This document shows, in pieces, positions 5,024 through 44,585 of a stretch of 64,000 nucleotides of DNA. The DNA is from an uncultured Myxococcales bacterium. Its GTDB lineage: Bacteria; Myxococcota_A; UBA9042. The DNA lies in NCBI GenBank assembly GCA_903924465.1, contig CAIYBN010000082.1:1-64000 (forward strand), read 5' to 3'. The translations under genes and the position numbers were made by a program. How positions within the stretch are numbered: the stretch's first letter is position 1; each line of letters begins with the position of its first letter. Under the pieces are notes generated by a model. That model made no database searches and was not told the origin of the DNA. It worked only from the letters and a program-made list of their open reading frames with translations.

Positions 5024-8000
5024 TCAGTAATCGCCCGGTGTGTAGAGGACGGCGTCGACGACGCGGCCGTAGCCACCGCCCTGGGTGACCGAGACGATGA
5101 CGCCGTTGGTCCGTGAAATGACGTAGTCCGGGAAGTTGTTGTACGGGCTGTACCGCACCAACAAGCCACACGCGTCGTAGACGCCCGGGTGGTTGTCAAT
5201 CCAGTCCATCATCGTCTGCACCGAGCCGTACATGCGCGTGCGCAGCAGGTCGCCGGTCGCCGGGTCCTGGCACAGGAAAACGTCGCCCAGGAAGTTCGCA
5301 GTTTCCACCGCTTGCACCGTCATCGTGCCGGAATCCGCCAGTTGGTAGGAGATGTTCGCGCTGGTCGTGATCCCCGAGAAGTCGGCGTTGTGCGCCTCCA
5401 CCAGCTTGTCCACTTGCGCGTCCACCGGCCACAGCCAGCCAACGCTGGGCTGCTTCGGCACCCACGGCTCCACCAGCACGTCCAGCATCTCCGCCACGCC
5501 CGAGGTCGGGTCGTAAGGATCCGTAAAACGCGGCACCTGCACGTGCGCCGCCTGGTAGGCCGGGAACGTCTGGACCAGGTGCAAGTTCGCCGAGCCCAGC
5601 GTGAACGGTGTACCGTGACCGGCAAAGGCAGCCGGATAGCGCGCCAGGATCGGCACGCTGGTTTCGCGCAGCGGGATGACCGGTGGCGCGGTCGGATTGG
5701 TCGGATCCGGCACATAGGTCGGATCCAGCGGCGGCAACTGGCCCTCGCAGTCCTTTTGGATCTGGGTGAATTCCGCCAGTGTCTTCCAATCCGCCGCGCC
5801 GCACTGGTAAGCCGTACGGTTCGGGTGGTCGCTGTACGCCGCCGCCAGCACCGGACTGCCGAACAGGTTGGTCAGCGCGACCAGATTCTCCTTGCCCAGC
5901 GGGTCCCCCTGATTCGTGCGCATCACCTGGTAGATCGCCTTTTCGTCGCGGTAGAAAAAGCGCGTAAATTCATAGGAAAACAACGTGCCATTGAGAATAT
6001 CCGCTGTCACCACAAAATCCGTTGGCGGCTGCGTCGCCGTGACAAAGCGGCGATCCACGTAGTCGGCGAACTCGTATTGCCCGGCGCCTTGAGCGTCAAA
6101 GAACAGGTCGTCGACGTCGATCGGCACCGTCGACAAGTCGGGCACCGGGTTCTGCGTCGCCACGGTCAGGTACTTCAGCAGCGCGATGACGTATTGCTTG
6201 AAGAAGAACCGGCGATCGCGGATTTCCGGCGGCAGATTCTCGACTTTGCCGTGGCCGAGCATCATCTTGACGCGCTGGAAGGAGGTGTCCCACATCGCGC
6301 CCTGCATGCCGTACGGGTCGCCGCCGCCGCAGTAGTTGTAGCCGGTGTTCAAGTCGCCGGTGGCGTCCATGCAGAACGCGACCACCGGCTTGCCGGGCTT
6401 CATGCCCAGCGAACCGATGACGAGTGCGGCGTTGGGACCGAGGCGCACGCGGTCGGCGTCGGTCGGTGTCGGGCTGCCGGACGGCGGCGCGGCGGTGACA
6501 AAGCCTTCAAAGCCGGTGCAGTTGGCGTCCGGGACGAACGTCGCTGGGTCGTAGCCGTTGTTCGGGCTGTCCGGCCACAAGCACGCTGCGTCGCCCAAGC
6601 CGTGCGTCGTGGCGGCCGGATTCTGCGCCTTCAGCGCCTTGTTGATGCCTTCCTGCACCAGACGGGCATACTCATAATAGACCGCGCCGGAGCCATGCAA
6701 GTCCTGCGTCAGGCCGTCGTCGCTCCAGTCATTCTTGAAATGTCCCAGCGTGTTGGCATCAAACGTCACTTCCACGGCAGGATCCGGGTCCACCGGCCGC
6801 GCTGCGTCCAACACCACGCCGTAGGGCTGCAGCGTCGTCGATTTGAAGTTGAGATCCACGCCCGAGGTGTCAAACAGGAACAGCTCCGCGTCGTGGGTAA
6901 TGTTGCCGGTCAGCTTGTTGTAGGTGATCTGGTCCTTGGCGGCGTCGCCCGTCGTCTTCACGCAATTGCCCAGGAAATCTGACCACACCATGCCCAGCTT
7001 CAGGTCACAGACCTTCTTGCCGTCCGGACCGAGCTTGTCGATGATCGTCGTCGGCCCATCGGCGTCCAGCTTCAGCAACGGCGCGCCCAGCGTGTACGGC
7101 ATGACGCGCGGCAGGCGCAGGTCAATGCGATTCGGAATCGACGGTGTCGGCTGTGCCGCGAGCGGGCTGCTGACCCAAATGTGCAGTCCCAACGGGTAGA
7201 TACGCAGCGCGCCGACGTCGGAGAACTTGGTCTGCGTGCAGTGCCCCGACGCGATGCAGGAGTTCGTGCCGACCGTCTCCGCTGGCAGCTCCGGCGCGAA
7301 AGTGGCAAACAGCGCGTCCGCCAACTCGGTGGCTTGCAAACCAAATTGCGTGTCATCTTGCCAATTCAGCTCGTACTTTTTGCCGTTCTTGGTGATTTGC
7401 GTGCCGAGGTGGATCTGGAACGTGTCTTTGCCGTCGCGGCTCTTGAAGTCCATCGTGCCTTCGTAGCCGATATTGACCGTAATCCACTGAATTTTGTTGT
7501 GATTCGTGATGTCGTATTTGACCCAGACCTCGCCGTTGTCGCCCCACTGGTTGACCAGCGTGCCGTCGCCGAACAGGTCGCCGTCGCTGGTGCTCTGGCA
7601 GTTGATTTGCTCAGCGGCCTCGACCGTCAAGCCGGCCCAGCTCGGTCCGCCAACGCCATCGATGCCCGCGGCCTGGGTCGGCGGGATGATCGGCTCAGTC
7701 ACCATCTTCGCCCAGCGCGCCTTGCGCTGCTCACCGGTGCAGATTTCCTGCTTGTTCGTGCCGCCGGCAAAATCGGACTGGAAGCCCTGCGTTGGCGAAT
7801 TTTCCGTCGGAATCGGCGTCGCGCCGTCGTTCCACAGCTGCCCGGCGCCGGATGAGGCGGCCTTGAACGTCTGGGTGGGACCGTCCTCGCAGGCCGGCAA
7901 GGCACCGAGGCCAAGCGTGCAGAGCAGGGCAGTTAGGGCTCGTGCAAGAACAACTCGATCAAGTCCCAGCCGTGTGTCGCCGGGCGTATCGCGCAGCGGG

Positions 8001-41423: not shown

Positions 41424-41572
41424 GGCGACAGTGTGCCGGCAACGGTGGCGGATGAGAAGCAGCGGAGTTCGGCTTGCATCGATCGCGCAAAACGGCTAGT
41501 TCGCAACGGGATCATTTGGGGCGCCGCAGGACGCGCGCCGCATCACGATGGCGTCAACATGGACAAAATAGC

Positions 41573-42736
41573 ATGATTTTGCTGAAGAACGCAGAAGTCT
41601 TCGCGCCGCAGCGCTTGGGGCATCGCGACGTCCTGGTGGCGGGTGGCAAAGTGGTGGCCATGGCCGCACACCTGGACGTGCCGCCGTCCTGGTCTGTTGA
41701 AGTGCTGGATGTGCAAGGACAAAGGCTGATTCCCGGTTTGATCGATGGCCATACCCATCTGGCCGGCGGTGGCGGAGAAGCAGGTGCAGCGACGCGGGTG
41801 CCGTCCGTGTCGCTGACCCAGCTGACCCTGGCGGGTGTGACGACCGCCATCGGCCTCCTGGGCACGGACGCGCGGACGCGGACGATCGCGGAACTGCTGG
41901 CGTGCGCGCGCGGGTTGAGCGACTTGGGCTTCAACGCGCTCTGCTACACCGGCAGCTATGAAGTGCCGCCGACCACGTTGACTGGCTCCGTCCGCGGCGA
42001 CATCGTGCACATCGACCGAATCATCGCCTGCGGTGAACTGGCGCTGTCCGATCACCGATCGTCGCAACCGACTTTTGACGAGTTCGTCAAGATCGCCGCT
42101 GATTGTCACGTCGCCGGCATGATGACCGGCAAAGCGGGCCTGCTGCACCTGCACATGGGCGACGGCAAGCGCGGCTTGTCGCTCATCCAGCGCGCGCTCG
42201 ACGAGACCGAACTGCCGCCGCGCACCTTTCACCCGACCCACGTGAACCGGCAAAAGTGGCTCTGGCAGGACGCCAAGGCACTGGCGCGCCGCGGCTGTGT
42301 CGTGGATGCGACGGCGTTTCCGGCGGACGAAGACGGGCTTTCCGCGGCCGCAGCGATGGCCGATTGGCTCGACAGCGATCTACCGCGCGAGCGGTTGACG
42401 GTCAGCTCCGACGGTGGCGGTTGCCTGCCGACCTTCGATCGTGACGGCGTGCTGCTGCACATGGACGTGGGACGCAGTGCGGCGCTGCTCGACGAAATCC
42501 GCGTGCTGGTCCACGACGGCCGATCGCTGGAGGACGTGCTGCCGTTTGTGACCAGTCATGTCGCCAAGCATTTTCGCCTGCCGGGCAAAGGACGCATTGC
42601 GGTCGATGCGGACGCCGACCTGGTCGTGCTCTCGGAATCGCTGGCCGTCCACCACGTGATCATCGGCGGTCAGTGGTTTGTGCGCAACGGTGTGCCCGTT
42701 CGGCGCGGTCTATTCGAGACGGTTGAGACATTGTGA
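41573..42736 (+). CDS. iadA: Isoaspartyl dipeptidase-like amidohydrolase
   Basis: VLDVQGQRLIPGLIDGHTHLAGGGGEAG, TFHPTHVNR, LTVSSDGGGCLPTF. Confidence 0.88.
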   Translation: MILLKNAEVFAPQRLGHRDVLVAGGKVVAMAAHLDVPPSWSVEVLDVQGQRLIPGLIDGHTHLAGGGGEAGAATRVPSVSLTQLTLAGVTTAIGLLGTDARTRTIAELLACARGLSDLGFNALCYTGSYEVPPTTLTGSVRGDIVHIDRIIACGELALSDHRSSQPTFDEFVKIAADCHVAGMMTGKAGLLHLHMGDGKRGLSLIQRALDETELPPRTFHPTHVNRQKWLWQDAKALARRGCVVDATAFPADEDGLSAAAAMADWLDSDLPRERLTVSSDGGGCLPTFDRDGVLLHMDVGRSAALLDEIRVLVHDGRSLEDVLPFVTSHVAKHFRLPGKGRIAVDADADLVVLSESLAVHHVIIGGQWFVRNGVPVRRGLFETVETL

Positions 42737-42780
42737 GACATGGTGAGGCAATCAAGAGACGTTGTGAGACAGGTTGAGTC
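42725..42780. repeat. Helically phased GAGAC-type pentamer repeats (6 copies)
   Basis: GAGAC/GAGGC/GAGTC starts at 42725, 42735, 42745, 42756, 42766, 42776 (10,10,11,10,10 bp). Confidence 0.75.
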
Positions 42781-42857
42781 TTGGCCGGCCTGGCGCGCTC
42801 GAGCCGAATCCGTGAATTTACGCGCTGGAACGAAGGAAATTGAAGATTGCGCAAGGC

Positions 42858-42873
42858 TGGCACGCACTGTGCA
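42858..42873 (+). promoter_or_regulatory. Candidate sigma54 promoter TGGCACG-CACT-GTGCA
   Basis: GG (42859-42860), N10, GC (42871-42872); 11/12 match to TGGCACG-N4-TTGCA; predicted TSS ~42884. Confidence 0.55.
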
Positions 42874-42883
42874 TTGGATTGTC

Positions 42884-43064
42884 ACGTGGCACGCGCCCCA
42901 CCGTGTGCCAGTCTCGGTCGATGCACCGCTCCTTTGTTCGAGTGTGCGCGACCCCGCGCTACGTGCCCCGATCACGTAGCGGAGTGACCTGCCCCACACG
43001 GTCACTCTGCGGTGAAGCGCCGGTCAGTCCCCACACTGGCCGGCGCTTCACCACACGATTTTCG
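42884..43064 (+). ncRNA. Candidate structured sRNA: five hairpins, four with CCCC(A/G) loops, terminating in an 18-bp stem
   Basis: Inverted repeats 42887-42910, 42916-42953, 42957-42981, 42982-43007, 43011-43052 read directly. Confidence 0.5.
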
Positions 43065-43142
43065 CCTCCGATGTCCTCCAGTCACGCTTGTCCAGCGCGC
43101 GGGAATCCGTGACAATCCCGCCGTCTGACCGAGGTGCGCGAC

Positions 43143-44585
43143 ATGAGTGCGATGAAGCTGGTGTCTCTGGGAATTCTGCTCGCACTGTTGGGCTGCGGCG
43201 AAACGGCGTCCAACGTCGACACAGGCGACGGCGACGTCACGAGCGCGGACGATGGCGCGACCGGATCGGATGTGCATGTACCGAATTGTCATGGCAATTT
43301 CGACTGCGACGACAAGAATCCATGCACCACGGATCACTGCTCGGCGGCGTTTGAGTGCGTCCATGAGTTGAATTTCAACCCGTGCGACGACGGCAAAGTC
43401 TGCACAGAGTCAGATAGTTGCGATCACGGCGTGTGCAAAGGCACGAGCCTGGCATGCGTTGATGGCAATCCGTGCACCGACGACGATTGCGGCCCGGGCG
43501 GCTGCATCAACCTCGCCAACGCCGCGACGTGCGACGACGGCGACGGCTGCACGGTGGGCGATCTGTGCACCAAGGGCAGCTGCTTGAGCGGCAAGCCGAT
43601 GGTTTGCGGCGATGGCAATCCGTGCTCGACCGGGGCCTGCAGCGGCGGCACCTGTGTGGCCGCCAATCCCGGCGCGGCGTGTGAGGACGGCTCGGCTTGC
43701 ACTGAAGGCGATCACTGCGTCGGCGCCAAGTGCGTGGGCACCGCGATCGTCTGCAACGACGGCGATCCATGCACCAACGACGCATGCGTCGCCGGCAGTT
43801 GCACCTACACCGTTCATACCGGCGCGTGCGACGACGGGGACCCGTGTACGGGCGGCGATGTGTGCACCTTGGGTAAATGCGCCGGCAAGGCGCTCACCTG
43901 CGACGATGCGAATGCGTGCACGACGGACTCCTGCAGCGGCGGTTGCGTGCACGAAAACAACGACAACGCTTGCAGTGATGGCTTGAGCTGCACGAAGGAA
44001 GATTACTGCCAGAACGGGGCATGCGGCGCCGGGTGGATCGATTGCGACGACGGCAACGCGTGCACGACGGACGCGTGTTTGCCCGGCGGCTGCGTCCACA
44101 CGCCGTTCCTCGCGCCCACGTGCGACGACGACGACGCCTGTACGCTGAACGACACCTGCGCGGCCGGCAAGTGCGTGGGTGCCAGCATGAACTGCACTGA
44201 CAACCAGCCGTGCACCACCGACTCGTGCGACAACGGCGCGTGCATTCACGAGAATAACGACAACGCCTGCGACGATGGCATTGCCTGCACCAAGGAAGAC
44301 TACTGCCAAGGCGGCCTGTGCGGCCCCGGCTGGACCAACTGCGATGACAACAACGCGTGTACGACGGACGCGTGCCTGCCCGCCGGCTGCACACATACGC
44401 CGCTCGCCGGATCTTGCGACGACTTTGACCCCTGCACCGGCGATGGCACGTGCAGCGGAGTGGGTGTCTGCCAGCCGGGCACGCCTTTGCCCGCCGGCAC
44501 CGCGTGCGACGATGGCAACGTTTGCACCAGCAACGACGTCTGCACGGCGAACGGAATCTGCGCCGGTGTGACAAGCTGCCCCTGA
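43143..44585 (+). CDS. Cys-rich repeat lipoprotein (DGNxCTxDxC repeats)
   Basis: Lipobox LLGCGE; repeated CDDGNACTTDACLPGGC-type modules throughout. Confidence 0.8.
   Translation: MSAMKLVSLGILLALLGCGETASNVDTGDGDVTSADDGATGSDVHVPNCHGNFDCDDKNPCTTDHCSAAFECVHELNFNPCDDGKVCTESDSCDHGVCKGTSLACVDGNPCTDDDCGPGGCINLANAATCDDGDGCTVGDLCTKGSCLSGKPMVCGDGNPCSTGACSGGTCVAANPGAACEDGSACTEGDHCVGAKCVGTAIVCNDGDPCTNDACVAGSCTYTVHTGACDDGDPCTGGDVCTLGKCAGKALTCDDANACTTDSCSGGCVHENNDNACSDGLSCTKEDYCQNGACGAGWIDCDDGNACTTDACLPGGCVHTPFLAPTCDDDDACTLNDTCAAGKCVGASMNCTDNQPCTTDSCDNGACIHENNDNACDDGIACTKEDYCQGGLCGPGWTNCDDNNACTTDACLPAGCTHTPLAGSCDDFDPCTGDGTCSGVGVCQPGTPLPAGTACDDGNVCTSNDVCTANGICAGVTSCP

Follow-up and report, generated by a model that had tools for sequence, protein, structure and literature searches.

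The window analysed here is the whole stretch of 64,000 nucleotides (64 kb) of DNA from an uncultured Myxococcales bacterium, and it contains, on the + strand between an iadA-like gene and a gene for a Cys-rich repeat protein, a cluster of five hairpins preceded by a promoter-like site and an array of short repeats. The features of the locus are as follows.

41564-42736, + strand: iadA-like amidohydrolase gene (Pfam Amidohydro_1)
42716-42781, + strand: array of five to seven GAGACA-like units in 10-11 bp steps, overlapping the last iadA codons; proposed activator (upstream activating) sites
42858-42873, + strand: sigma-54 type -24/-12 promoter TGGCACG-N5-TGCA, with the correct GG/GC spacing (site sequence TGGCACGCACTGTGCA)
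42884, + strand: predicted transcription start (+1), 12 nt past the -12 C of the sigma-54 site
42887-42910, + strand: hairpin A, 9 bp, loop CCCCAC
42916-42953, + strand: hairpin B, stem partly interrupted, loop CUUUGUUC here and CnCGUUC in relatives
42957-42981, + strand: hairpin C, 9 bp, loop CCCCGAU
42982-43007, + strand: hairpin D, loop region UGCCCCACA, which contains CCCC
43011-43052, + strand: hairpin E, 18 bp, loop CCCCAC; probable 3' end
43134-44585, + strand: Cys-rich repeat protein gene (Pfam Dicty_CTDC), outside the RNA

The preliminary description of this DNA had drawn five inverted repeats between 42884 and 43064, with CCCC(A/G) in four of the five loops, and had proposed that they form an RNA. 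All five repeats are present at the coordinates listed above and each folds as drawn, and the loop motif is borne out in four of five cases, with UG preceding the C run in hairpin D. Folding of 42850-43080 gave -117.7 kcal/mol against a mean of -84.7 kcal/mol for dinucleotide shuffles (z -7.3), and none of 200 shuffles was as low; against shuffles, the five-hairpin RNA alone gives a z of about -8 and hairpin E by itself one of -8.3. A uniform rule (9 or more stem pairs without interruption, loop containing CCCC) finds three non-overlapping hairpins on the two strands of the 64 kb window (hairpin C overlaps D in this count), all of them here within 166 nt, and no other such hairpin on either strand. 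The five-hairpin cluster is not due to chance. The C runs of the loops are predicted to be unpaired, the low figure for hairpin D reflecting one paired C at the loop edge, and there is no GGGG inside the five-hairpin RNA, that is, nothing to mask the C runs.

The element is found after iadA, in the same place and as a single copy, in all five genomes of the genus. BLASTN against related genomes, which had been suggested as a check, matched the region in all four other genus genomes and gave no other convincing match in 53 relatives; the match spans the promoter to hairpin E at ~80% identity, with little identity before the promoter or after hairpin E. The matched records are Myxococcales MAGs, whose lake origin is judged from isolate names. 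Of 284 genomes of the phylum, a covariance model was positive in five, all of one genus, with one true copy in each; outside this genus it gave no convincing match, in a search whose first pass scored few candidates and would therefore miss diverged homologues. The model also matches the minus strand weakly at this place, which simply reflects the palindromic sequence. Across the class, a pattern search for a sigma-54 site together with GCCCCAC returned mostly chance matches.

Covariation across homologues, on which the proposal of an RNA had been made to depend, is present: in the five-way alignment, which comprises five related genomes, ten stem pairs are changed on both sides and pairing holds in 97.5% of cells. 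So many doubly changed pairs occurred in none of 500 shuffles, and when the partners were slid by 1-3 columns only 28-47% of cells were paired. The ten pairs fall in helices A, B and E (three each) and C (one); the cells of stems A, C and D are 100% paired and those of stem B 91%, and one pair of stem D occurs as UG, CG and UA. Because the wobble cells in the stems comprise 27 G-T and 1 A-C, the + strand is the RNA. A minus-strand RNA, with GUGGGG loops, is contradicted by this wobble pattern. Selection on exposed C-rich loops, which had been suggested from the window alone, is supported by the invariance of loops A (6/6 positions), C (7/7) and D (9/9) in all five species, with compensatory changes in the stems. 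Loop E retains CCCC in three genomes and only CCC in G001 and G003, and loop B varies and is without CCCC in the window genome, G002 and G003.

The preliminary description did not mention the sigma-54 promoter, the array upstream of it or the presence of the element in relatives. In all five genus genomes TGGCACG and TGCA are invariant, and the five internal bases and the flanks vary; the predicted start at 42884 sits 3 nt ahead of hairpin A. Each genus genome encodes RpoN (PF04552) and 20-26 sigma-54 activators (PF00158), and these, together with the conserved -24 GG / -12 GC element, are consistent with a sigma-54-dependent transcription unit. Further upstream, seven GAGACA-like units start at 42716, 42725, 42735, 42745, 42756, 42766 and 42776, that is, about 10.5 bp apart, and span about -168 to -108 from the inferred start. 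The five central units hold their position within 2 bp across all five genomes (-159/-149/-139/-128/-118 in the window genome and G004, -161/-151/-140/-129/-119 in G001-G003). Perfect paired GAGACA units are almost confined to this locus in these genomes; the two exceptions, at loci L032 and L033, have no sigma-54 site after them. Judged from its sequence, the array probably represents activator sites on one helix face.

The iadA-like gene is the constant upstream neighbour of the element (83-84% identical in the genus). On the downstream side, the window genome has the Cys-rich gene next, G001 has a transporter-like gene, and G002 and G004 have a HEAT-repeat gene; in these three relatives no Cys-rich gene lies between the element and the next gene. 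The contig of G003 stops inside hairpin E. Since the downstream gene differs between species, the RNA appears to stand alone, and a role as the leader of a particular gene is unlikely. Only in the window genome does the Cys-rich Dicty_CTDC-repeat gene sit at this position, between the RNA and the HEAT gene; related Cys-rich repeat genes in relatives lie on the opposite side of iadA. Structure, strand, conservation, promoter and independence from the downstream gene are supported by computation, and the comparative sequence evidence makes the RNA, its strand and its promoter very probable.

A comparable arrangement occurs in G007, a genome of the sister genus, where two GAGACA units and a perfect sigma-54 site follow iadA (65% identical), and the RNA there shares no sequence similarity with that of the genus. 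This RNA comprises CGTCGCGAA-CCCCCTAAA-TTCGCGGCG and then a final 17-bp hairpin with the loop CTTCCCCCCCTCCGAATC, and the last hairpin is followed by CTTTGTTTTTG, which makes it a U-tailed terminator. In the genus no U tract follows hairpin E, and the 3' end of the RNA is therefore uncertain there; by comparison with the terminator that closes the G007 RNA, the RNA of the genus probably likewise ends with hairpin E. G007 keeps C-rich loops of the CCCCC type on stems unrelated to those of the genus, and some of its loops contain CCCUCC or CCUCC, close to the anti-SD itself. A second sigma-54 site in G007 (contig C54) leads to hairpins with the loops TTCGCCCCTCCACCCTCC and CCCTTTCCCCCGAAGGC, and this second C-loop RNA and a PAS histidine kinase gene are arranged tail to tail, with a gene for a response-regulator sigma-54 activator nearby.

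A survey of 152 sigma-54 consensus sites in up to 18 family genomes, with hairpins sought within 260 nt downstream, found long C-loop hairpins after six sites, namely the four genus copies tested and the two in G007, each with at least two such hairpins. No C-loop hairpins were found in 132 upstream control stretches or after the twenty further sites of G021, and no GGGG-loop hairpins after the first 132 sites. As a separate observation, the activator, the histidine kinase and the second C-loop RNA of G007 are grouped together at locus L211 (1444-5360). Orthologues of this activator (64-65%) are present in four genomes of the genus (G000, G002, G003 and G004), and none was found in G001; near those in G000, G002 and G004 there is no C-loop RNA.

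That the RNA is undescribed, as had been claimed, agrees with the Rfam 15 search, which gave no match in the window at the gathering score; a lax search returned only sub-threshold hits on part of the RNA, to PtaRNA1 (25.3 vs 47 bits) and CC1840 (19.6 vs 50 bits). Staphylococcal UCCC-motif sRNAs such as RNAIII bring C-rich hairpin loops to the G-runs of SD sequences, but they differ in their UCCC motif, belong to low-GC Firmicutes and are unrelated to this RNA. CrcZ, Qrr and GlmY/GlmZ are sigma-54-dependent sRNAs; they resemble the present element as structured regulatory RNAs under sigma-54 and an activator, whereas motifs, hosts and structures differ. The earlier comparison with Cuckoo-type sRNAs holds at the level of architecture, in that alpha-r14 RNAs have three hairpins with a shared anti-SD motif on dissimilar stems (PMC10746234). 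In one of them, NfeR1 of Sinorhizobium meliloti, redundant SD-directed loop seeds have been demonstrated; its regulators are LsrB, an activator, and NtrC, a repressor, and no sigma-54 control is described there (PMC10746234). The likeness lies in the repeated pyrimidine-rich loop motif on dissimilar stems, and the differences in the number of hairpins (five here vs three), the motif (CCCC(A/G) here vs CCUCCUCCC), the phylum and the lack of an Rfam match; CCUCCUCCC does not occur in the loops here, which are CCCCAC, CUUUGUUC, CCCCGAU, UGCCCCACA and CCCCAC.

In mycobacteria, the C-run loops of B11/6C pair redundantly with G-rich RBSs (PMC10470900). Both this actinobacterial RNA and the one described here present C-run hairpin loops in a GC-rich bacterium, but 6C/B11 has two loops with longer C runs, as opposed to four hairpins with C runs of 4, and belongs to a different phylum, and its Rfam model gives no match here at the gathering score. 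We know of no sigma-54 promoter for 6C/B11. Pxr, an sRNA of Myxococcus xanthus, has several stem-loops and lies behind a predicted sigma-54 promoter, upstream of which is an enhancer-binding region (PMC5568312, PMC5684412). It is set apart here by description, that is, by size, hairpin count and gene neighbours: Pxr is ~108 nt long with three stem-loops and lies between nla19 and an NADH dehydrogenase gene, unlike the ~170 nt, five-hairpin RNA after iadA. The present RNA is thus outside every Rfam family and lacks the sequence-defining features of alpha-r14, 6C and Pxr, and by analogy its mode of working may be most like that of alpha-r14 and 6C.

Several other explanations of the hairpins have to be weighed. 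They might act in cis, as the 3' UTR or terminator of iadA or as a 5' leader (attenuator or riboswitch) of the next gene; the hairpins do lie ~150 nt past iadA on the same strand, and hairpin E is like a terminator stem. We nevertheless regard a cis-acting element as improbable, because a conserved sigma-54 site of its own separates the hairpins from iadA, the RNA stays constant while the next gene changes (Cys-rich, transporter, HEAT), the G007 RNA has its own terminator, and five hairpins are more than a terminator. Dense and near-perfect inverted repeats would also be expected of a palindromic element working at the DNA level, such as a mobile REP-like repeat or a set of protein-binding sites, without purposeful transcription; the single copy per genome, the bias of wobble cells toward G-T and the invariance of loops A, C and D make this very unlikely. 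The chance that the region encodes a small protein is close to nil: open frames of 79 and 90 codons do cross it, but the species differ by 1-nt indels in loop B and between the first two hairpins, which put them out of frame with one another, and the changes track base pairs.

A protein sponge is an unlikely, though more serious, alternative. The repeated C-rich loops would then titrate an RNA-binding protein, much as RsmY and RsmZ titrate CsrA/RsmA and as CrcZ, itself sigma-54-controlled, titrates Hfq/Crc. A single RNA with many similar exposed loops and a sigma-54 promoter fits this idea, as does the fact that the stems closing loops C and D are themselves constrained, being almost as conserved as the loops. 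On the other hand, the loops vary in size (5-9 nt) and in 3' context, there are only three to five sites per RNA, and the loops are without the GGA of CsrA sites or the A-rich motifs of Crc/Hfq sites; to our knowledge, there is no CCCC-loop-binding protein of the kind that such a sponge would titrate.

By analogy with alpha-r14/Cuckoo and 6C/B11, to which the element is unrelated in sequence, we consider it moderately probable that the element is a sigma-54-controlled trans-acting sRNA with redundant C loops that pair with G-rich ribosome-binding sites. An activator, probably bound to the helically phased GAGACA array, would turn on the sigma-54 promoter at 42858-42873, from which a stand-alone RNA of ~170 nt would be transcribed rightwards and fold into five hairpins, four of them exposing CCCC(A/G) loops. 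These loops would serve as short redundant seeds for the G-rich ribosome-binding sites of several mRNAs, and the pairing would block translation under whatever condition the activator senses. What we infer in this scheme is that the element is transcribed, that an activator drives it and that it base-pairs with target mRNAs. The assignment of the loops as seeds is suggested because redundant C-rich loops on unrelated stems are kept while the stems drift or turn over; the conservation of stems C and D counts against the scheme, since pairing through the loops alone does not require conserved stems, and so do the shortened C run of loop E in G001 and G003 and the lack of CCCC in loop B of three genomes.

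The regulatory RNAs known from Myxococcota are few, and the RNA bears on the open question of how sRNAs pair without obvious chaperones in GC-rich bacteria. With the promoter and the proposed activator sites lying beside it, both its regulation and the function of its loops are directly testable. Stem similarity has apparently been lost altogether between two genera in which loops and promoter are kept, so homology searches would miss such RNAs. It is possible, and we put this forward only tentatively, that the RNA represents a family-wide Myxococcota class of sigma-54-controlled sRNAs in which lasting selection acts only on the C-rich loops and the promoter, stems are replaced between genera, and the activator reads a phased repeat array rather than a palindrome; its members might act as multi-site titrators or multi-target silencers.

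Other structured stretches were seen after sigma-54 sites in the family. G012 carries at least six paralogous structured RNAs of ~200 nt (L102, L179, L180, L185, L189 and L191), each directly after a sigma-54 consensus site, with 86% mean column identity and 10 pairs changed on both sides; the two that were searched against Rfam had no match. At locus L171 of G005, taken whole, a G-rich RNA-like stretch that follows a sigma-54 site folds strongly (z -5.1) and may be a relative of the G012 set. Finally, at locus L212 of G012 (5194-7200), a sigma-54-activator-like gene whose N-terminal region appears to be FHA-like is directly followed by a sigma-54 site and then a folded C-rich RNA-like stretch (z -4.6).
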